Notes under the pieces: generated by a model
What the model saw: the letters and a program-made list of their open reading frames with translations, nothing else
Told to the model about the DNA's origin: nothing
The model's database searches: none
Source of the DNA: Paracoccus sp. MA
GTDB lineage: Bacteria; Pseudomonadota; Alphaproteobacteria; Rhodobacterales; Rhodobacteraceae
Direction of reading: 5' to 3'
Assembly (NCBI RefSeq): GCF_020990385.1
Contig: NZ_CP087597.1
Location: 1,015,001-1,079,000 of the forward strand
DNA: 64,000 nt
Part shown: positions 13,704 to 23,059 of the stretch, one piece after another
How positions within the stretch are numbered: position 1 is the stretch's first letter
How the letters are laid out: each line of letters begins with the position of its first letter
Program-made: the position numbers and the translations under genes

Positions 13704-15272
13704 ATGCTGGTTGTGGAGACGATTGCGAAGATCCGCCGGGCGTATTTCCAGGACAAGAAGTCGATCAAGCATATCTGCCGAGAGCTGCGGGTATCGCGGA
13801 ACACGGTTCGGAAGGTGATCCGGTCCGGCGCAACGGAGATGACTTACGAGCGAACCGTCCAACCGCAGCCGAAGATCGGTCCCTGGAAAGGCAAGCTCGA
13901 CGAGATGCTGGCGGCGAATGCGCGCAAGCCGAAGCGCGAGCGGCTGACCCGCATCCGGATTTTCGAAGAGCTCAGGGCCCTCGGATATGACGGCGGCTAC
14001 GACGCGGTCCGACGCTATGCGGCTTCGTGGTCGCAGGCGGAGCAGGAAGCGTCAGCCGCCGCCTATGTGCCACTGAGCTTCGATCCGGGTGAAGCCTACC
14101 AGTTCGACTGGAGTCACGAGGTCGTTCTGATCGACGGCGTGACCACCACGGTGAAGGTGGCTCACGTCCGGCTTTGTCATAGCCGGATGCTATTCGTCCG
14201 GGCCTACCCGCGAGAGACGCAGGAAATGGTGTTCGATGCCCATGACAAGGCCTTTGCCTTCTTCGGCGGCGCCTGTGCGCGTGGGATCTACGACAACATG
14301 AAGACGGCGGTGGACACGATCTTCGTCGGCCGCGACCGCGCGTATAATCGCCGGTTCCAGCAGATGTGCGGACACTACCTTGTCGATCCCGTCGCCTGCA
14401 CCCCCGCGTCCGGCTGGGAGAAGGGACAAGTAGAGAACCAGGTTGGCGTTGTCCGGCGGCGGTTCTTCGTGCCGCGGCCGCGCTTCAAGAGCTACGCGGA
14501 ACTCAACGCCTGGCTTCAGGATCGCTGTATTGCCTGGGCCAAGGCCCATCCGCACCAGGAATTGCGTGATCGGACAATCTGGGACGTGTTCCAGGATGAG
14601 CGGGCGAGCCTGGTGCCCTACGTCGGCCCTTTCGACGGATTCCATGCCGTGCCGGCCTCGGTGTCCAAGACCTGCCTCGTTAGGTTCGACAAGAACCGCT
14701 ACTCGGTCGATGGTCGCGCCGTCGGCCGTCCGGTCGAGATCCGCGCCTATGCCGAGCGGGTCGAGGTCTGGCAGGACGGCAAGATCGTCGGCCGGCACGA
14801 CCGCGCCTTCGGGCGCGACAAGGCCATCTATGACCCGCTGCACTACATCCCGGTGCTGGCCCGCAAGCCCGGCGCCCTTCGAAACGGCGCTCCCTTCAAG
14901 GAATGGGAACTGCCGCCGGCGATACGACGCGTCCAGCGTAAGCTGGGGCGCGTGCCGAACGGTGACCGTCAGATGGTCCAGATCCTGAGCATGATCCCAA
15001 CGGATGGACTGGAAGCCGTCGAGGCTGCCTGCGTCGAGGCCCTGACCGAAGGCGCCCCGGCGGCATCGGTCGTTCTGAACATCCTGGCCCGACATCGCGA
15101 GCCACCACCTCCGTTGACCATCGCCACGCCGGACGCGTTGCGCCTGACCTGCGAGCCCGTGGCCGACTGCAAACGCTACGACAGCCTCAGGAGACCCCGC
15201 CATGGAAAGATCACAGGTGCTGGACGCGATGGGCCAGTTGAAGCTCTACGGCATGAAGGCCGCCTACGATGA
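13704..15272 (+). CDS. istA: IS21-family transposase IstA
   Basis: The DDE-type transposase of the insertion sequence, 522 residues. The N-terminal helix-turn-helix is clear ([20 protein letters not shown]), and the rve integrase core follows at about 120-260, beginning [18 protein letters not shown] with the first catalytic Asp and continuing through [10 protein letters not shown] and the Glu-bearing [18 protein letters not shown]. The C-terminal region ([21 protein letters not shown]) is the Mu-like beta-barrel domain. It overlaps istB by 71 bases, as usual in IS21 elements. The protein looks intact. Confidence 0.95.
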
Positions 15273-15930
15273 GATCATCGCCACGGCGGTGAAGCGACAG
15301 CACGAACCGCAGCAAATCGTGGGCGACCTGCTGAACGCCGAGATCAGCGAGAAACAAGCTCGCTCGATCAAATACCAGATGACCATCGCCAAGCTGCCCT
15401 TGGCCAAGGAAGTCGACGAGTTCAGCTTCGAAGACACGCCCGTAAACGAAACGCTGGTGCGCGATCTGGCCTCCGGAGAGTTCCTCGAGCATCAGCGTAA
15501 CGTCGTCCTCATCGGCGGCACCGGGACCGGCAAATCCCACCTTGCCGTCAGCATCGCCCGGGCCTGCATCCGCCGTGGCAAGCGCGGCCGCTTCTTCAAC
15601 GTCGTGGACCTGGTGAACAAGCTGGACGCCGAAGCCCGCGCCGACCGACAGGGACGCACTGCGGATCTCCTGTGCCGCCTCGACTTCCTGATCCTCGACG
15701 AGTTGGGATATCTGCCGTTCGCCCAGACGGGTGGCCAGCTCCTGTTCCACCTCATCAGTCGCCTTTACGAACGCACCTCGATCATCGTGACGACGAACCT
15801 CGACTTCGGCGAATGGCCGACCGTCTTCGGAGACGCGAAGATGACAACGGCGCTCCTCGACCGACTGACCCATCACTGTGACATCGTCGAGACCGGCAAC
15901 GAGAGCTGGCGCTTCAAGACGCGGGAATGA
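15202..15930 (+). CDS. istB: IS21-family transposition helper ATPase IstB
   Basis: A 242-residue AAA+ ATPase that forms a target-selecting partner of IstA. Walker A is GGTGTGKS at residues 105-112, Walker B is [12 protein letters not shown], and sensor 1 is [12 protein letters not shown]. The N-terminal 80 residues ([13 protein letters not shown] and [11 protein letters not shown]) form the oligomerisation/IstA-contact part of the IstB family. Full length, so the IS may still be active. Confidence 0.95.
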
Positions 15931-16060: not shown

Positions 16061-16413
16061 GTCTGGGGAGCGAAAGCCAGAAGCGCGCCAATGATGACCT
16101 GTTCCATACCCTGAAACAGCAGCAAGATGCGCTGCAATCAGACGCCCGCACACTGGAACGTCTCCAGCACAGCGCGCAGGGTGCGGACGGACAAATGCAG
16201 GCCCTCGGCTATGCCAACCAGCTTGCCAGCCAGCAGGCCAATCAGCTCTTGCAGATGCGTGCCATGTTGCTTGCACAGCACCAGGTCATTGCAACACGGA
16301 TGCAAGCCGAGGCCGACCTCGATGCGAAACAACAGGCTGCCCATGCCGCTTCCACCGAATCGCGGATAGCGCCGACCAACAGTCCCAAGAACTGGCTCGA
16401 ACTGGCCCGCTGA
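16061..16413 (+). pseudogene. trbJ: TrbJ, C-terminal fragment of a conjugal transfer protein
   Basis: About 116 in-frame codons beginning right at the IS end encode the coiled-coil C-terminal part of TrbJ, a periplasmic VirB5-like mating-pair protein. The visible text includes SESQKRANDDLFHTLKQQQD and the Gln/Ala-rich helix around AQGADGQMQALGYANQLASQ. Family members are about 240-260 residues with a signal peptide, so the N-terminal half is missing and no ribosome-binding site is present. It ends in PKNWLELAR, a tail echoed by the next gene. Confidence 0.8.
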
Positions 16414-16428
16414 CAAGGAGAGGCACCC

Positions 16429-16692
16429 ATGAACAAATTAACTATTCCGATGCTGGCAGGCTTCCTTCTCGCCATCACTGGCTGCGACAACACCCCACCC
16501 GCCCCGACCATGCCGGAGGTGAACGATGCCAACTGCCAGATGGGAGAGATCATGAAGATCCAGGACAAGACAACTCGGGAGACATTTGCCGGGTTGTGCT
16601 CGCGCCGGCCGGCAGGCAGCGGCATTGCCCCCACAGAGCAGCCGCTTAACTGGCTGGAGTTGACCGAGCCGCAACATCGGGAGGGCAACTGA
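16429..16692 (+). CDS. trbK: TrbK-like entry-exclusion lipoprotein
   Basis: An 87-residue lipoprotein with a clear lipobox (MLAGFLLAITGC, Cys at residue 19). Small size, position between trbJ and trbL, and a conserved Cys-containing core (NDANCQMGEIMKI, later FAGLCSRR) match TrbK of IncP-type systems, which blocks entry of related plasmids into a cell that already carries one. Its TGA overlaps the trbL ATG by one base (TGATG). The tail IAPTEQPLNWLEL closely resembles the end of TrbJ. Confidence 0.75.
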   Translation: MNKLTIPMLAGFLLAITGCDNTPPAPTMPEVNDANCQMGEIMKIQDKTTRETFAGLCSRRPAGSGIAPTEQPLNWLELTEPQHREGN

Positions 16693-18074
16693 TGAAGACC
16701 ATGACTAGAGCAATCCTGAGCGGCGGGGTCCTGGTGCTGCATTCGAGCCTCGCCAGTGCAAACCTGACCAACCAAGGGATTCTCGACCAGGTAGTAACCG
16801 ATTACGCCACCCGAGCAGCCAGTTGGCAGCACGTGATTATCGATGCTGCGTCGTGGCTGTTCTGGACGCTGGTGGTGATCTCGATGGTCTGGACGTTCGG
16901 AATGATGGCCTTGCGCAAAGCAGACATTGGCGAGTTCTTCGCGGAGCTGGTCCGTTTCATCATCTTCACTGGCTTCTTCTGGTGGCTGCTGGTCAATGGG
17001 CCGGCGTTTGCCAACTCGATCATCCAATCATTGGCCAGAATCGGTGAGCAGGCGGCTGGCGTGTCCTCGGTCACGCCGTCCGGCATCGTCGACGTAGGCT
17101 TTATGATCTGGAAGCAAGCCGTCAACAACCTATCAGCTTGGTCGCCGGTCGATAGCCTGGTGGGTGCGGTGCTAAGCGCGGCGATTATGCTTCTTCTGGG
17201 TCTGGTCGCCGTCAACATGCTGCTGATGCTTGTTGCGGCCTGGCTAATGGCCTACGCGGGCATCTTCTTCCTGGGGTTCGGCGGATCGCGCTGGACTTCA
17301 GACATGGCGATCAACTACTACAAGACCGTCCTTGGCGTTGCCGTTCAGATCATCACCATGGTGCTGCTGGTTGGCATTGGTAACGACATGCTGTCGACCT
17401 TCTACACCAGGATGAACCAGAACGTGCTCAACTTCGAAGAGCTGGGCGTCATGTTGGTGTTCTGCATGGCGTTGTTGTCACTGGTTAACCGGGTGCCACC
17501 GATGGTAGCCGGAATTGTCACCGGGTCCAGCATCGGGTCTGCCGGCGGCATCGGCAACTTCGGTACTGGAGCTGCGGTAGGTGCCGTTATGGGGGCGGCT
17601 GGAATGGCAGCGGGCGCAGCAAGCGTGGCAGGTTCAGCCGTCATGGGTGGTGCTGCAAACCTGGCGGGTGGCGGTTCAGCCATCAAGGCGGCGTTCGATA
17701 AGGCACAAGCCTCGATGTCGAGCGGAGGCGACATGCCCAGCATGGGAGGAATGTCGAGCAGCAGTGTTGGTAGCGGTGGAGCTAACTCAGGAGATGGCAG
17801 CGATACCGGCAGTACACCGTTTGCTCAAGCGGCTGGCTTTGGTGGTAACGCCGGCAGCCCTGGTGGCGGCATCAAACAGGCAGCAAGCCTTTCTGCGGGG
17901 GCAGTCGGAAATTTGGTCAAGGGCGCTGGCTCGATGATGGCTGAGAAATTCAAAGAACGTGTGGCTGATACAGTCGGTGGTCGTTTGGCATCTACGATCC
18001 GTGAAAGCTCGCATTCCTTTGGCGGTAATAGCTTGGGCGGTGAAAGCGACGGCAACACTAAGCGGGAGGTGTGA
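16692..18074 (+). CDS. trbL: P-type conjugative transfer protein TrbL (VirB6-like)
   Basis: A polytopic inner-membrane component of the conjugative type IV secretion channel. The 460-residue protein has an N-terminal signal-like segment, about six membrane spans between residues 50 and 270 (for example SWLFWTLVVISMVWTFG and LLGLVAVNMLLMLVAAWLMAYAG), and a long Gly/Ser/Ala-rich cytoplasmic or periplasmic tail (about 280-460). Length and layout are normal for TrbL, so this gene appears intact although the rest of the transfer apparatus is missing. Confidence 0.9.
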   Translation: MKTMTRAILSGGVLVLHSSLASANLTNQGILDQVVTDYATRAASWQHVIIDAASWLFWTLVVISMVWTFGMMALRKADIGEFFAELVRFIIFTGFFWWLLVNGPAFANSIIQSLARIGEQAAGVSSVTPSGIVDVGFMIWKQAVNNLSAWSPVDSLVGAVLSAAIMLLLGLVAVNMLLMLVAAWLMAYAGIFFLGFGGSRWTSDMAINYYKTVLGVAVQIITMVLLVGIGNDMLSTFYTRMNQNVLNFEELGVMLVFCMALLSLVNRVPPMVAGIVTGSSIGSAGGIGNFGTGAAVGAVMGAAGMAAGAASVAGSAVMGGAANLAGGGSAIKAAFDKAQASMSSGGDMPSMGGMSSSSVGSGGANSGDGSDTGSTPFAQAAGFGGNAGSPGGGIKQAASLSAGAVGNLVKGAGSMMAEKFKERVADTVGGRLASTIRESSHSFGGNSLGGESDGNTKREV

Positions 18075-18102: not shown

Positions 18103-18131
18103 TTGACCTGCCGAGTCGACTTGTCGACAAT
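18103..18131 (+). promoter_or_regulatory. Predicted promoter of the restriction operon containing two GTCGAC sites
   Basis: TTGACC at 18103-18108 and GACAAT at 18126-18131 are spaced by 17 bases, a plausible sigma70 promoter 38 bases before the ATG of the small regulator gene. Two GTCGAC hexamers lie at 18115-18120 (spacer) and 18123-18128 (reaching into the -10), two bases apart; the second sits in the 10-base palindrome TTGTCGACAA. GTCGAC is the sequence recognised by XamI-family enzymes, one of which is encoded just downstream. Confidence 0.6.
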
Positions 18132-18168
18132 GCCTCAAGGTCCGATTAGATATATTTGAGAGGTGCCT

Positions 18169-18336
18169 ATGGCCGACAACATAAAACCTAGAAAAATCAT
18201 AGGGGTCAGCATGACTCCCTCCCTGGCCTTGAAGGTCAAGGAGGAAGCTGTTCGTGAGGGAATATCCATTCGCAAGCTCTTTGAGCGCATGTGGGACGCC
18301 TATCAAAAGACTAAGAAGATGCAGAATGCCGGTTAA
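18169..18336 (+). CDS. Small ribbon-helix-helix DNA-binding protein
   Basis: A 55-residue protein, MADNIKPRKIIGVSMTPSL and onward, with the pattern of an RHH fold: a basic N-terminal strand (KIIGVSMTP), helix A (ALKVKEEAVREG) and helix B (SIRKLFERMWDAYQKTKK). It ends 11 bases inside the restriction endonuclease gene, so the two are translationally coupled. It may be the operon's own regulator acting at the promoter just upstream, or a plasmid/ICE-derived DNA-binding protein left over from the trb region. I do not recognise a named family. Confidence 0.7.
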   Translation: MADNIKPRKIIGVSMTPSLALKVKEEAVREGISIRKLFERMWDAYQKTKKMQNAG

Positions 18337-19297
18337 CCTTGATAAGCCTCATCTCTGGAAGGCTGACATAGCGCGTTCAGTTGATATGTACAATGACTGG
18401 TTCATAAATTTCGCGCCGACTGCCTTTAGGGAAACTCGTATCCAGACCACTAAGGACGTCGAGGAGACTCTTAAGTCTACCGAGAACTTGACCAACATTC
18501 GTCCTGAAATTCTTCGCAAATGGCCGGGTGTCCTGCCGACTTTGCGGATGTCAACTTGCCCCCCATTAGCTGTGGATAGACTTATCGGGCTGGCAGGCGT
18601 GTCCAGCAGTATGGTCAAAAGGATGGAGAAAGAAAAACAGCTTCCTGTTCGGATGGCTGCCGCTGATATTGATCGCGAACTGGTAAAGATGGCAGCCGTC
18701 ATCGAACGACTGGCTGACCCCGACATTTTTGTGTGGATGAAGCGTTCAGCCCCAGCGACTGAAGTCGAAATCCATCGCGCTGCTACCATCGTTGCCGACC
18801 GTCTTTGTGGCTCTGTAGCAAACCCGATCATCCGCAATGCTCAGGAACAAAGGCAGCTTGCCTATATCGCTAATTGGCTAGAGGAGCGAGGATATTCCCA
18901 GCTCCCTGCACGGTCGAATGTCACTTTCGACACTATGCCCCCAGGGACCTACAGTTTCCGCATGAATATACCAGTAACCAACGGTGAAGGCGGCGATGCA
19001 AGCATTAATATCCCCGTTGACACTGTGGTTATGCGGAAGTCTGCGACAAAGGGCGATTATCCGCTGTTGATCGAAGCCAAGTCTGCAGGTGACTTCACCA
19101 ACACCAACAAGCGCCGTAAGGAAGAGGCCCAGAAGGTCAACCAGCTCCGTGCAACCTACGGACATATACGACCGATAGAGTTCATCCTCTTTTTGTGCGG
19201 ATACTTCGATAGTGGTTATCTTGGTTACGAGGCTGCTGAAGGTATTGATTGGGTGTGGGAGCACCGTATCGATGATCTGGAGGGGTTTGGTTTATGA
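18326..19297 (+). CDS. XamI-family type II restriction endonuclease
   Basis: A 323-residue enzyme matching the XamI family, whose characterised member recognises GTCGAC. The PD-(D/E)xK nuclease core is visible as Asp232 (PVDTVV) and Glu250-x-Lys252 (LLIEAK). The N-terminal part (WKADIARSVDMYNDWFINFAP) is the conserved family start. The ATG at 18326 was chosen because it overlaps the upstream small gene; a frame open to 18254 would run through that gene. Its stop overlaps the methyltransferase start (ATGA). Codon use is much more AT-rich than the host, indicating transfer. I saw no GTCGAC within this gene. Confidence 0.85.
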   Translation: MPVNLDKPHLWKADIARSVDMYNDWFINFAPTAFRETRIQTTKDVEETLKSTENLTNIRPEILRKWPGVLPTLRMSTCPPLAVDRLIGLAGVSSSMVKRMEKEKQLPVRMAAADIDRELVKMAAVIERLADPDIFVWMKRSAPATEVEIHRAATIVADRLCGSVANPIIRNAQEQRQLAYIANWLEERGYSQLPARSNVTFDTMPPGTYSFRMNIPVTNGEGGDASINIPVDTVVMRKSATKGDYPLLIEAKSAGDFTNTNKRRKEEAQKVNQLRATYGHIRPIEFILFLCGYFDSGYLGYEAAEGIDWVWEHRIDDLEGFGL

Positions 19298-21051
19298 CCG
19301 AGTGGGATAGGATTGAGGCTAAGCGGCTCAATCTTCAAGCCTTGCTTGATGAACAGAAAACCTCTGAAGATCGCAATCGCATGGGCCAGTTTGCTACCCC
19401 GACTACGCTCGCGAGGGAAATTGTTTCCCATGGCGTTAACCTTCTTCCACCGGGTGAGCGTGTTCGTTTTCTCGACCCCGGAATTGGTACCGGCTCATTC
19501 TATTCCGCTTTGCTTGCTACGACGCCAGCCGAGCAGATTGAGCGCGCCACCGGCTTCGAGGTCGATTCGCACTATTATGGCCCTGCTCAAGAATTGTGGA
19601 AGGAGCATGCCTTAGACCTGAGGCTTGGTGACTTTACACAAGCGCAACCAGGAAGGCATGAGAGGGCGAACGTCATTATCTGCAACCCGCCCTACGTAAG
19701 GCATCATCATCTTGATTCCGAAACTAAGACCCGTCTTCAGCTCGGCACCGAAGCAGCCTGCGGCGTCCGGATCAATGGGCTTTCCGGTCTTTACTGTTAT
19801 TTTATGGGGCTATCCCATCCTTGGATGGAGGAGGGGGGTGTCGCTGGTTGGTTGATTCCCAGCGAGTTTATGGACGTGAATTATGGCAAACAGGTCAAGC
19901 AATACCTTTTAAATAAGGTGACTCTCCTGCAAATTCATCGTTTTGATCCGGCCGACGCGCAGTTCGCGGATGCGCTTGTCTCATCCGCTGTTGTGTGGTT
20001 CCGGAACGCGAAGCCGCCCAAAAACCATGAGGTCCTTTTCAGCTACGGTGGCACGCTGGCTGCCCCTGCCATGCAGCGAAGAGTTTCTGCCGCTTTGCTC
20101 CAGCTAGAGCCCAAATGGACCCGTTACCCGATGGCGGACGGTGCTGCTGCTAAAGGGCGCACTACTATTGGTGACTTGTTTGAGGTGAAGCGCGGCCTGG
20201 CAACGGGCGATAACAGTTTCTTCATAATGACCCGCTCCCAAATTGATGAGAGGGGCTTGCCTTTCGAATGCTTTACGCCGGTTTTACCGAGTGCCCGTTA
20301 TCTGCCCAACGATGAGATACTGGCTGATGAGGACGGCATTCCGATGCTCGAAAAGCAACTTTTCTTGCTCGATACTCGTCTTTCGGAGTCCGAGATCGCA
20401 TGTCGATATCCCGCCTTGAAAGCCTATCTCGACAAGGGAACCGTTGGTGAAAAGCCTGTTGCAGAAGGCTACCTATGTCGTTCACGCTCACCTTGGTATG
20501 CGCAGGAGAAGCGACCTGCCGCGCCCTTTCTGTGTACGTATATGGGTAGGCAGAAAGAGGGAAAGCGACCCTTCCGGTTTTTCCTCAATCACTCGCGTGC
20601 TACTGCCTGCAACACATATCTACTTCTTTATCCGAAGCCGAGCTTGGCGAGTCTTCTTGATTCTGATTTAGACCTGAAGCGAAGCATCTGGGAGTTTCTC
20701 AATGCTATTACCTCAGAGGAGCTACTTGGAAGCGGTCGAGTTTATGGCGGTGGGCTTCATAAGATGGAGCCAAGGGAGCTACGAAGTGTCAGTGTCGATG
20801 GACTGATTCGCTGCCTACCTCAACTCGCTCCTCAAGGGAAGCAAGTGGAGATGTTTGAGCCTGCCTTTCTGGACGATGAGAGCTTAAGTACCGACCTGCC
20901 GGCGTTTATCTCAACGACTAACGCTCGCGAGCTGTATGGACTACGCGAGGGTGAAGCTGTTTCCGAAGCGATAGCTCGAAATCGGAAAGATCGTGAAGCG
21001 CAGCTTTTTAATGGTAAAGCTGAGCATGGTATTTCTCGTGGTACCGGGTAG
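19294..21051 (+). CDS. N6-adenine DNA methyltransferase (Eco57I-like, XamI partner)
   Basis: This 585-residue enzyme should methylate the adenine in the site cut by the upstream endonuclease. It has the gamma-type motif order: motif X (GQFATPTTLAREIV), motif I DPGIGTGSFY at 61-70, and motif IV NPPY at 131-134, followed by a large target-recognition region with hallmarks such as GGGLHKMEPREL near residue 485. It overlaps the endonuclease gene by four bases. Like that gene it is AT-rich, and no GTCGAC is visible in it. It is the last gene before attR. Confidence 0.9.
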   Translation: MTEWDRIEAKRLNLQALLDEQKTSEDRNRMGQFATPTTLAREIVSHGVNLLPPGERVRFLDPGIGTGSFYSALLATTPAEQIERATGFEVDSHYYGPAQELWKEHALDLRLGDFTQAQPGRHERANVIICNPPYVRHHHLDSETKTRLQLGTEAACGVRINGLSGLYCYFMGLSHPWMEEGGVAGWLIPSEFMDVNYGKQVKQYLLNKVTLLQIHRFDPADAQFADALVSSAVVWFRNAKPPKNHEVLFSYGGTLAAPAMQRRVSAALLQLEPKWTRYPMADGAAAKGRTTIGDLFEVKRGLATGDNSFFIMTRSQIDERGLPFECFTPVLPSARYLPNDEILADEDGIPMLEKQLFLLDTRLSESEIACRYPALKAYLDKGTVGEKPVAEGYLCRSRSPWYAQEKRPAAPFLCTYMGRQKEGKRPFRFFLNHSRATACNTYLLLYPKPSLASLLDSDLDLKRSIWEFLNAITSEELLGSGRVYGGGLHKMEPRELRSVSVDGLIRCLPQLAPQGKQVEMFEPAFLDDESLSTDLPAFISTTNARELYGLREGEAVSEAIARNRKDREAQLFNGKAEHGISRGTG

Positions 21052-21105
21052 GCTTGCCCACGTACAGCTCTGAAATAAAAGTATTTTTTAACGCTATTTA
21101 TAATA

Positions 21106-21117
21106 GAGTGGGAGTGA
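21106..21117 (+). repeat. Putative attR core (duplicate of the guaA end)
   Basis: GAGTGGGAGTGA repeats the last four guaA codons. Immediately after it come a strong terminator and GC-rich host-like sequence, while immediately before it is AT-rich DNA, so the boundary also shows as a composition break. Confidence 0.75.
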
Positions 21118-21122
21118 CCCCG

Positions 21123-21150
21123 AAGGGCAGCCGAGGGGCTGCCCTTTTCG
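21123..21150 (+). terminator. Orphaned native guaA terminator
   Basis: GGGCAGCC-GAGG-GGCTGCCC followed by TTTT forms an 8-bp GC stem. It lies six bases past the duplicated guaA stop codon, exactly where the guaA terminator should have been before the island entered. It now serves the end of the methyltransferase gene. Confidence 0.85.
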
Positions 21151-21312
21151 TTTCGGGGGCCGCATCCGGCGCAAGGCGCGGCTTTGCAAATTGACAAGGC
21201 CGGCTTAATGCCGCCCGATAAGGTTGCCGCCGCTAACGGCTTCGGCCCCGGGAACGCTGCCGGTTCCCCCCGGCCTGCCATTGCGGCAACCGTTCACAAC
21301 AAGGATCCTGCC

Positions 21313-22122
21313 ATGAGTTGCGCCTGCGGACATAACCACAACCCCGCCCCCCCTGTGGCTTTGGGCGGCGAGGAGATCCGGCTGGACCGGCCGCTGGTCT
21401 CGCTTTCGGGCCGGCTGATCTGCCAGGACGCCGCGCAGATGCTGCTGGCGCTGGACCTGCTGACCGAACATGCCGAACTGAGCCGGGCCGAGCCCGGCAA
21501 CCTGCGCTTCGACCTTGCCCAGGCCGAGGATCCGCTGGTCTGGGAACTGAACGAGCTTTATGCCGACGAGGCCGCCTTCCAGGCGCATCGCGACCGGTTG
21601 AAGGACAGCCGCTGGGGCCGCGAGAGCCATGGCATCCGGCGCGATTTCACCCGCAGCGAACCGATGCCGCGCCTGCGGGCCGAGATGGCGCATGACCGCG
21701 CCGCCGTCTCGGACCTGCTGACCCGCGCCTTCGGCGGCGAGGACGAGGCGCGCCTGGTCGAGGCTTTGCGGGCCGAGGGCAGCCTTGCCCTGTCGCTGGT
21801 CGCCGAGGCGGGAGGCACCCTCGTCGGCCATGTCGCCCTGTCGCCGCTTCGGGCCGAGGCGCCGGCGCTGGCGCTGGCGCCGCTGGCCGTGCATCCCGCC
21901 GTGCAGTCGCGCGGCATCGGCGAGGCGCTGGTCCGTGCCGCGCTTGCCGCATTCGACGGCCATACCATCGTGGTCCTGGGCGACCCGGCCTATTACGGCC
22001 GCTTCGGCTTTGCGCCGGCCGAGCTGGATTCGCCCTATGCCGGGCCGCATCTGATGGCGCTGGGGCCGCAGCTGCCCGCAGGCAGCCGCATCGCCCACGC
22101 CCCGGCCTTCGCCGCGCTCTGA
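21313..22122 (+). CDS. Fusion of an ABM-like monooxygenase domain and a GNAT acetyltransferase
   Basis: A 269-residue protein in three parts: a short Cys/His-rich start (MSCACGHNHN) that could bind metal; residues about 20-115 resembling a dimeric alpha/beta-barrel ABM/quinol monooxygenase domain (VWELNELYADEAAFQAHRD); and residues about 120-269, a GNAT N-acetyltransferase with the acetyl-CoA motif region LAVHPAVQSRGIGEALV and VLGDPAYYGRFGF. ATG 21313 follows AAGGA by seven bases; the frame is open further upstream without a better start. The GNAT part is like the YhbS group. Substrates are unknown. Confidence 0.75.
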   Translation: MSCACGHNHNPAPPVALGGEEIRLDRPLVSLSGRLICQDAAQMLLALDLLTEHAELSRAEPGNLRFDLAQAEDPLVWELNELYADEAAFQAHRDRLKDSRWGRESHGIRRDFTRSEPMPRLRAEMAHDRAAVSDLLTRAFGGEDEARLVEALRAEGSLALSLVAEAGGTLVGHVALSPLRAEAPALALAPLAVHPAVQSRGIGEALVRAALAAFDGHTIVVLGDPAYYGRFGFAPAELDSPYAGPHLMALGPQLPAGSRIAHAPAFAAL

Positions 22123-22126
22123 CGCT

Positions 22127-23059
22127 TCAGCTTTCGGTCTCGGCCGGCGGTGGCTCCTGCTGCGGCAGCCGGAGCCGCACGCGCTTGACCCGGCGCGGAT
22201 CGGCGTCGACGATCTCGAATTCGGCGCCGCTTTCATGCGGGATCACCTCGCCGCGCACCGGCACGCGACCGGTCAGCATGAAGATCAGCCCGCCCAGCGT
22301 GTCGATTTCTTCCTCTTCCTCGTCGGTGGCAAGGCGCAGCCCGGTCTGCGCCTCGACATCCTCAAGCGCGGCGCGGGCCTGGATCAGCCATTGCCCGGGC
22401 TTTTCCTGGATGACCAGGCCGCCCTCGATCTCGTCATGCTCGTCCTCGATCTCGCCGATGACCTGCTCGATCAGGTCCTCGATGGTGACCAGCCCGTCCA
22501 CGCCGCCATATTCGTCGATCACCAGCGCCATGTGGATGCGCTTCTGCTGCATCTGCTGCAGGAGCACGCCGATGGGCATCGAGGGCGGCACGTAAAGCAG
22601 CGGCCGCAGCATCGGGCGCAGCGCGAACTTGACCGGGACCTGGGCGCCGAAGCCGTATTTCAGCGCCAGATCCTTGAGATGGATCAGCCCCAGCGGACTG
22701 TCGAGCGTGCCGCGAAACACCGGGATGCGGGAAAAGCCGTGCTCGCGGAACATCTCGACCAGCTCCGGCAGGCTGGCGGTCACCGGGGCGGCGGCGATTT
22801 CCGCCTTGGGAATGGCGACGTCATCGACGCGCATCCGCCGCAGGTTGACCATGCCAGGCACGCCCGCCGGGGCGGCGGCCGGCCCCTTGTCGCGATCCTC
22901 GGCGCCTTCCGGCTCGGGCTCTCCGCCGCCCAGGGCGCCGAGGATGCGCCCCAGAAAGCCGCGCGATTGCGGCAGGTCACGCCCGTCCCCGCCGATGCCA
23001 TCCGCCCATGAGGCGGGTTCGGCAGAGACGGGCGTGTCGGGACTTCGGTCGTTACTCAT
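22127..23059 (-). CDS. corC: CorC/HlyC-type CBS-domain protein
   Basis: A 310-residue protein with paired CBS domains (about 70-200, for example RRMRVDDVAIPKAEI and FSRIPVFRGTLDSPLGLIHLKD) and a C-terminal CorC_HlyC domain. It lacks the DUF21 membrane domain, as in CorC/YbeX. YbeX-type proteins sit beside phoH-ybeY, as here, and have been tied to Mg/Co efflux and, more recently, ribosome homeostasis. Its start overlaps the ybeY stop by four bases. Confidence 0.87.
   Translation of the reverse strand: MSNDRSPDTPVSAEPASWADGIGGDGRDLPQSRGFLGRILGALGGGEPEPEGAEDRDKGPAAAPAGVPGMVNLRRMRVDDVAIPKAEIAAAPVTASLPELVEMFREHGFSRIPVFRGTLDSPLGLIHLKDLALKYGFGAQVPVKFALRPMLRPLLYVPPSMPIGVLLQQMQQKRIHMALVIDEYGGVDGLVTIEDLIEQVIGEIEDEHDEIEGGLVIQEKPGQWLIQARAALEDVEAQTGLRLATDEEEEEIDTLGGLIFMLTGRVPVRGEVIPHESGAEFEIVDADPRRVKRVRLRLPQQEPPPAETES

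Follow-up and report, generated by a model that had tools for sequence, protein, structure and literature searches.

A tandem pair of GTCGAC boxes as the probable operator of a ribbon-helix-helix protein encoded in a XamI-family restriction-modification operon of Paracoccus

The controls described for restriction-modification (R-M) systems include helix-turn-helix (HTH) C proteins, repressor methyltransferases, antisense control and promoter methylation, the last as in CfrBI, LlaDII and AhdI (2025 review, PMC12707154, in excerpt). C proteins such as C.PvuII and C.AhdI are small DNA-binding proteins whose genes precede that of the nuclease and whose operators lie in their own promoters (PMC12707154, in excerpt). 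The term ribbon-helix-helix (RHH) does not occur in this review, and the literature searched, from which subscription journals were largely absent, yielded no R-M operon under an RHH controller. Here, a XamI-family R-M operon is described in a window of 64,000 nucleotides (the whole stretch of DNA analysed) of Paracoccus sp. MA. The operon begins with the gene of a 55-aa protein that is probably of the RHH fold, and two GTCGAC boxes lie in the promoter region of this gene. We consider it likely that the two boxes form the operator of this protein, which would be a dedicated autorepressor encoded first in the operon that it controls.

In the window, a -35-like hexamer TTGACC (18103-18108, + strand), read from the sequence and recovered by a promoter scan, and a -10-like hexamer GACAAT (18126-18131, + strand) are separated by 17 bases. 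Box 1 (GTCGAC, 18115-18120) and box 2 (GTCGAC, 18123-18128), for which strand is not applicable, follow each other at 8 bp, box 2 sharing three bases with the -10. The initial annotation had given the two hexamers, their spacing and both boxes correctly, and its claim that no further GTCGAC follows up to 21051 is borne out by a scan of the window, in which none was found in 18129-22204. It had overlooked the first gene of the operon, that of the RHH protein (18169-18336, + strand), the ATG of which is preceded at 5 bases by a possible ribosome-binding site, GAGAGG (18158-18163, + strand). The end of this gene overlaps by 11 bp the start of the gene for a XamI-family restriction endonuclease (R) of 323 aa (18326-19297, + strand; PF09572, E 7.7e-122). 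The latter runs head to tail, with an ATGA overlap, into the gene for an adenine-type DNA methyltransferase (M; Eco57I/N6_Mtase) of 585 aa (19294-21051, + strand; PF07669, E 1.9e-12; PF02384; PADLOC MTase_II, E 5.5e-134). The gene order is RHH, nuclease, methyltransferase, and the XamI nuclease domain adjoining a DNA methyltransferase marks a XamI-type Type II R-M system. The recognition site of XamI, for which no confirming paper was found, we take to be GTCGAC. As far as gene order and conserved boxes indicate, the layout is that of a C-protein system, with the putative regulator gene first and its candidate operator in its own promoter. C proteins, however, bind through an HTH and both activate and repress, whereas the protein here is RHH-like and its operator would consist of putative recognition sites.

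The bare hexamer and the bare promoter are unremarkable. The window has no excess of GTCGAC (21 copies against 16.8 expected), and three promoter-consensus matches in 3.4 kb compare with 2.1 expected. Such counts and scores were not used as evidence because they are no better than chance. The tandem pair, GTCGACNNGTCGAC, exists in a single copy in the 4.47-Mb genome of Paracoccus sp. MA, and a bare pair is not rare elsewhere, at least one copy being present in 22 of the 101 genomes searched (own included). What lifts the pair above chance is its conservation in promoters of the RHH gene.

XamI loci were drawn from plasmids (8 of the 12 records first, others later), from 14 viral contigs and from the best 80 of 527 genome contigs. 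Plasmid records H6, H7, H10 and H11 were left out, as were the near-copies and Halorussus among the 18 later plasmid records. These loci and the window were searched with a profile of the small protein, and up to 400 bp of upstream DNA was scanned for the pair; L009, with 14% of the nuclease only, counts in neither group. The exact pair GTCGAC-N2-GTCGAC, a tandem of 8-bp period (the only period searched for), lies upstream of the gene in 26 of the 28 loci with an RHH gene, window included, and with one mismatch in L018 and two in L071. Among the first 27 of these loci, 25 carry the exact pair no more than 81 bp from where the profile match starts; the 28th, L114, was found later through its RHH protein and has the exact pair as well. 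In none of the 78 XamI loci without an RHH gene is there a pair with zero or one mismatch in the upstream DNA (shorter than 400 bp in six of them), six having one single GTCGAC and L076 a pair with two mismatches. Five XamI loci sampled later (L142-L146) have neither the gene nor the pair, L145 and L146 being weak negatives with part of the nuclease only. Repeat searches led back to these five, to the 14 viral contigs and to L114. Paired sites in related XamI operons, which the initial annotation had proposed to look for, are thus found where the RHH gene is present and are missing where it is absent. Its absence from XamI loci devoid of the RHH gene makes the pair, on the simplest view, a binding site for that regulator, rather than a site acting via methylation alone.

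The pair remains with the RHH gene even where the gene order has changed. Besides RHH-R-M, the order RHH-M-R is found in L025 and L114, and in L024 and L026 the RHH gene faces R-M. A pattern scan for the pair together with a -35 element returned 14 contigs, of which three led to an intact RHH gene and one to the L016 copy, which is interrupted, these four being in the set already; no RHH-like frame was found, by a simple pattern, in the other 10.

The association of pair and RHH gene has a Fisher value of 9.5e-23, which ignores kinship, and a tree-based test is to be preferred. On a nuclease tree of 111 rows, made by a quick method with long branches flagged and without the short frames L062, L037 and L076, the RHH gene undergoes 11 changes, at least eight of them on supported branches. 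In eight independent comparisons, the pair follows the gene in 7.3 on average and never does the opposite (median p 0.016). The pair has therefore been co-inherited with the gene repeatedly. Among non-redundant RHH promoters (nuclease less than 90% identical), the exact pair is present in 17 of 19, against 1 of 38,000 dinucleotide shuffles. When 18 divergent promoters are aligned (L071 left out), 11 of the 12 box positions are identical in all 18 and the first base of box 1 in 17, whereas the two spacer bases and the flanks vary. Conservation thus ends at the hexamer, that is, at the putative recognition site. In 11 of the 19 non-redundant loci, TTGAC begins 10-12 bases before the pair, and in about 10 of the 19 a -35 and a -10 bracket it, with the -10 touching box 2. 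A place between -35 and -10 is the classic position of a repressor.

In its predicted model, the 55-aa protein has the strand-helix-helix fold of about 45-55 residues characteristic of the RHH (Arc/MetJ/CopG) superfamily and lacks the HTH fold of C-protein controllers, so that we regard it as probably an RHH protein. Curated RHH models do not match the window protein. Among 24 aligned relatives, RHH_1 matches six and Antitox_RHH six, all weakly (best E 0.0013), and the small protein of L114 scores under the cut-offs of such models. The relatives amount to 645 matches, mostly nameless or "hypothetical" among the 120 listed. In searches starting from the RHH protein, all 12 strong matches adjoin a XamI nuclease, several of them being near-copies. 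RHH relatives beside other R-M types were considered and not retained: all strong matches were XamI loci, and three weak ones (E 3e-3 to 6e-2) were set aside, two of which were inspected: one belongs to a partition cassette adjoining a XamI system, and the other has an R-M system of a different kind as its neighbour. Across 385 genomes of the class, the RHH profile matched the own genome only, at E 1e-6. Phage records gave no match for the RHH relative P0077 or for the window nuclease, further viral scans turned up no relative, and a plasmid search with the upstream DNA of the operon gave no match. Six relatives (P0008, P0009, P0010, P0011, P0012 and P0014) appear by eye to hold two RHH units within a chain of 97-114 aa. 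In this they resemble TraY and DndE, both of which function as monomers (PMC10853773, in excerpt).

Single-RHH proteins, including MetJ, form dimers, which insert a sheet of two strands into the major groove (PMC10853773, in excerpt). MetJ represses from two or more tandem boxes of the consensus AGACGTCT (PMC4239095, in excerpt), and the tandem palindromic layout with an 8-bp period is common to both systems. The box itself is not shared, since it reads NGTCGACN here, and MetJ, the co-repressor of which is SAM, controls methionine genes instead of an R-M operon. Omega binds repeats in its own promoter, and the portions available of PMC3874152 compare C proteins with two RHH repressors from toxin-antitoxin operons, Omega and PaaR. 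Omega and PaaR belong to three-gene toxin-antitoxin operons, whereas here the controlled pair would be nuclease and methyltransferase, and the boxes are probable targets of both. An RHH protein is also known from phosphorothioate DNA modification systems, where the double-RHH protein DndE is proposed to recognise target sequences (PMC10853773, in excerpt). DndE differs in its two RHH units and in its proposed role, which is to guide modification together with an ABC ATPase and not to control a promoter. In CfrBI, the cognate site lies within the promoter region (PMC12707154, in excerpt), and the R and M genes are divergent with overlapping promoters. At the Paracoccus locus, by contrast, R and M form a single operon behind one putative promoter, and the putative regulator is a separate protein. 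GTCGAC overlaps this putative promoter, which would be a parallel to CfrBI if GTCGAC is the cognate site.

By analogy with MetJ, two RHH dimers would occupy the adjacent 8-bp boxes next to each other, presumably in a cooperative manner. Once bound, they would cover the region that separates the -35 from the -10 and close down the promoter of their own operon, a case of negative autoregulation. Because the boxes equal the presumed site of XamI, methylation may gate the binding of the repressor. Methyl groups added to adenine would come to lie in the groove read by the RHH sheet. Whether the encoded enzyme, by methylating the boxes, alters repressor binding, so that the operon would sense the extent of modification, we judge to be about evenly balanced. 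As to the sign, the likelier case is that methylation blocks the repressor, so that repression would be relieved after the methyltransferase has acted.

Other regulator types accompany the XamI genes in some systems. In distant XamI systems on plasmids of Gordonia, Micrococcus, Rhodococcus and Mycobacterium kansasii (L136-L139), an unrelated putative regulator of 70-odd residues is encoded 5' of the methyltransferase gene, and Pfam gave no convincing match for the two of these small proteins that were submitted to it. GTCGAC lies within 80 bp 5' of the small gene in all four, and twice, 14 bp apart and around TATAAC or TATAGC, in L136 and L138. In shuffles of these upstream regions, one GTCGAC arises in 3-5% and two in less than 0.1%; the four systems share ancestry and are therefore not four independent cases. 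A weak relative of this regulator (34%, E 0.03) precedes an unrelated methyltransferase (PF01555) and a probable nuclease in a Mycobacterium avium plasmid (L141). Upstream of it (L141:2912-2933) stands a perfect 22-bp palindrome with GACGTC, the AatII restriction site, twice at 8 bp. An annotated HigA-type antitoxin gene adjoins the methyltransferase gene on its 5' side in the distant XamI systems L133, L134, L024 and L026, possibly a further regulator type. The XamI system of a Pseudomonas aeruginosa plasmid (L132:1594-1715) encodes another small protein, weakly RHH-like, and the palindrome at its promoter is also a different one. It is possible, although we lean slightly against it, that XamI-family systems carry dedicated repressors placed on their own modification sites, the operon measuring its own methylation and opening fully only in modified DNA. 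Such control would then have at least two origins, one in proteobacteria that uses an RHH protein and one in actinobacterial plasmids that uses an unrelated small regulator.

Several observations weigh against an RHH autorepressor acting on the pair, or against the generality of such control. L071, with its two mismatches, breaks the rule that pair and gene go together, and L016 and L075 combine an intact GTCGAC pair with an interrupted RHH frame. In L024 and L026, it is not evident that the RHH protein controls R and M. No GTCGAC is found at the promoter of the HigA-type systems L133 and L134 (L134 has a two-mismatch pair about 125 bp 5' of the HigA gene), nor at that of L132. In Agreia (L135), no small regulator gene was seen and the 420 bp 5' of the methyltransferase gene contain no GTCGAC. 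Granting an RHH repressor, the part played by methylation may be conceived in two ways. In a methylation-gated switch, which comes close to an even chance, unmethylated boxes would bind the RHH protein and modification by M would block it, giving full expression only once the DNA is protected, or the sign would be the reverse. It agrees with a conservation that stops exactly at the putative recognition site and with the GTCGAC found 5' of the unrelated small regulator, but two other regulator types of XamI systems lack GTCGAC; moreover, R precedes M in the operon, so that the switch alone would give no delay of R behind M. Methylation-gated repression has a known parallel in OxyR and Dam at agn43; a similar working is proposed here, with the difference that the system's own methyltransferase would be used. 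The second possibility, a plain autorepressor whose operator equals the recognition site by chance and for which methylation has no role, is somewhat less probable. RHH binding alone would account for all the conservation data, but the accidental match, one in 64 palindromic hexamers, would be needed again in the actinobacterial systems.

The initial annotation supposed that methylation of the sites tunes transcription; it would then act directly on RNA polymerase, without any dedicated regulator, and the overlap of the sites with the promoter, as well as the promoter methylation that regulates CfrBI, LlaDII and AhdI (PMC12707154, in excerpt), would agree with this; the pair is nevertheless missing from 78 of 78 XamI loci without the RHH gene, which makes the idea improbable. 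It is very unlikely that the RHH protein serves as an accessory to the enzyme machinery and binds any GTCGAC, much as DndE is proposed to recognise target sequences, the promoter pair being only the densest site. The putative box is indeed the putative target of R and M, but in 78 of the 106 loci counted R and M manage without this protein, and the exact pair in front of its own gene speaks for a regulatory role. Slightly less probable again is a methyltransferase that itself binds the pair and represses, as such an enzyme must recognise its own site. Methyltransferases of this kind use an N-terminal HTH domain (PMC3874152, in excerpt), whereas the domain scan found none here, and nuclease loci without the RHH gene have no pair. 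That the pair is functionless inherited baggage hardly deserves credence: RHH loci do cluster on the nuclease tree, but the flanks have diverged while the boxes have not, and the shuffles reproduced the pair once in 38,000.

The surroundings of the operon suggest how it may have travelled. In the own genome and 100 relatives, the nuclease has a match in the own genome only. Conjugation DNA of the trbL region (16078-17746) stands before the RHH-R-M operon in the window, and likewise in Nitrosomonas eutropha (L027:520-2178), the nuclease of which is 91% identical; this shared context points to the operon being mobile cargo. Further 5' of the conjugation genes in the window, two open reading frames (13704-15930) have by eye the look of a transposase and its ATPase helper, presumably of the IS21 type.

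It has long been asked how a restriction system that enters a naive cell keeps its nuclease in step with protection. The controller proposed here would, like the C proteins, be dedicated to an R-M system, but it would differ from them in fold and would act on an operator of putative cognate sites. If true, a repressor seated on modification sites would unite the regulator and methylation in one device, the operon reading out the completeness of modification. The family of small proteins to which the repressor belongs, mostly unnamed or hypothetical among the matches listed, would also gain a role.
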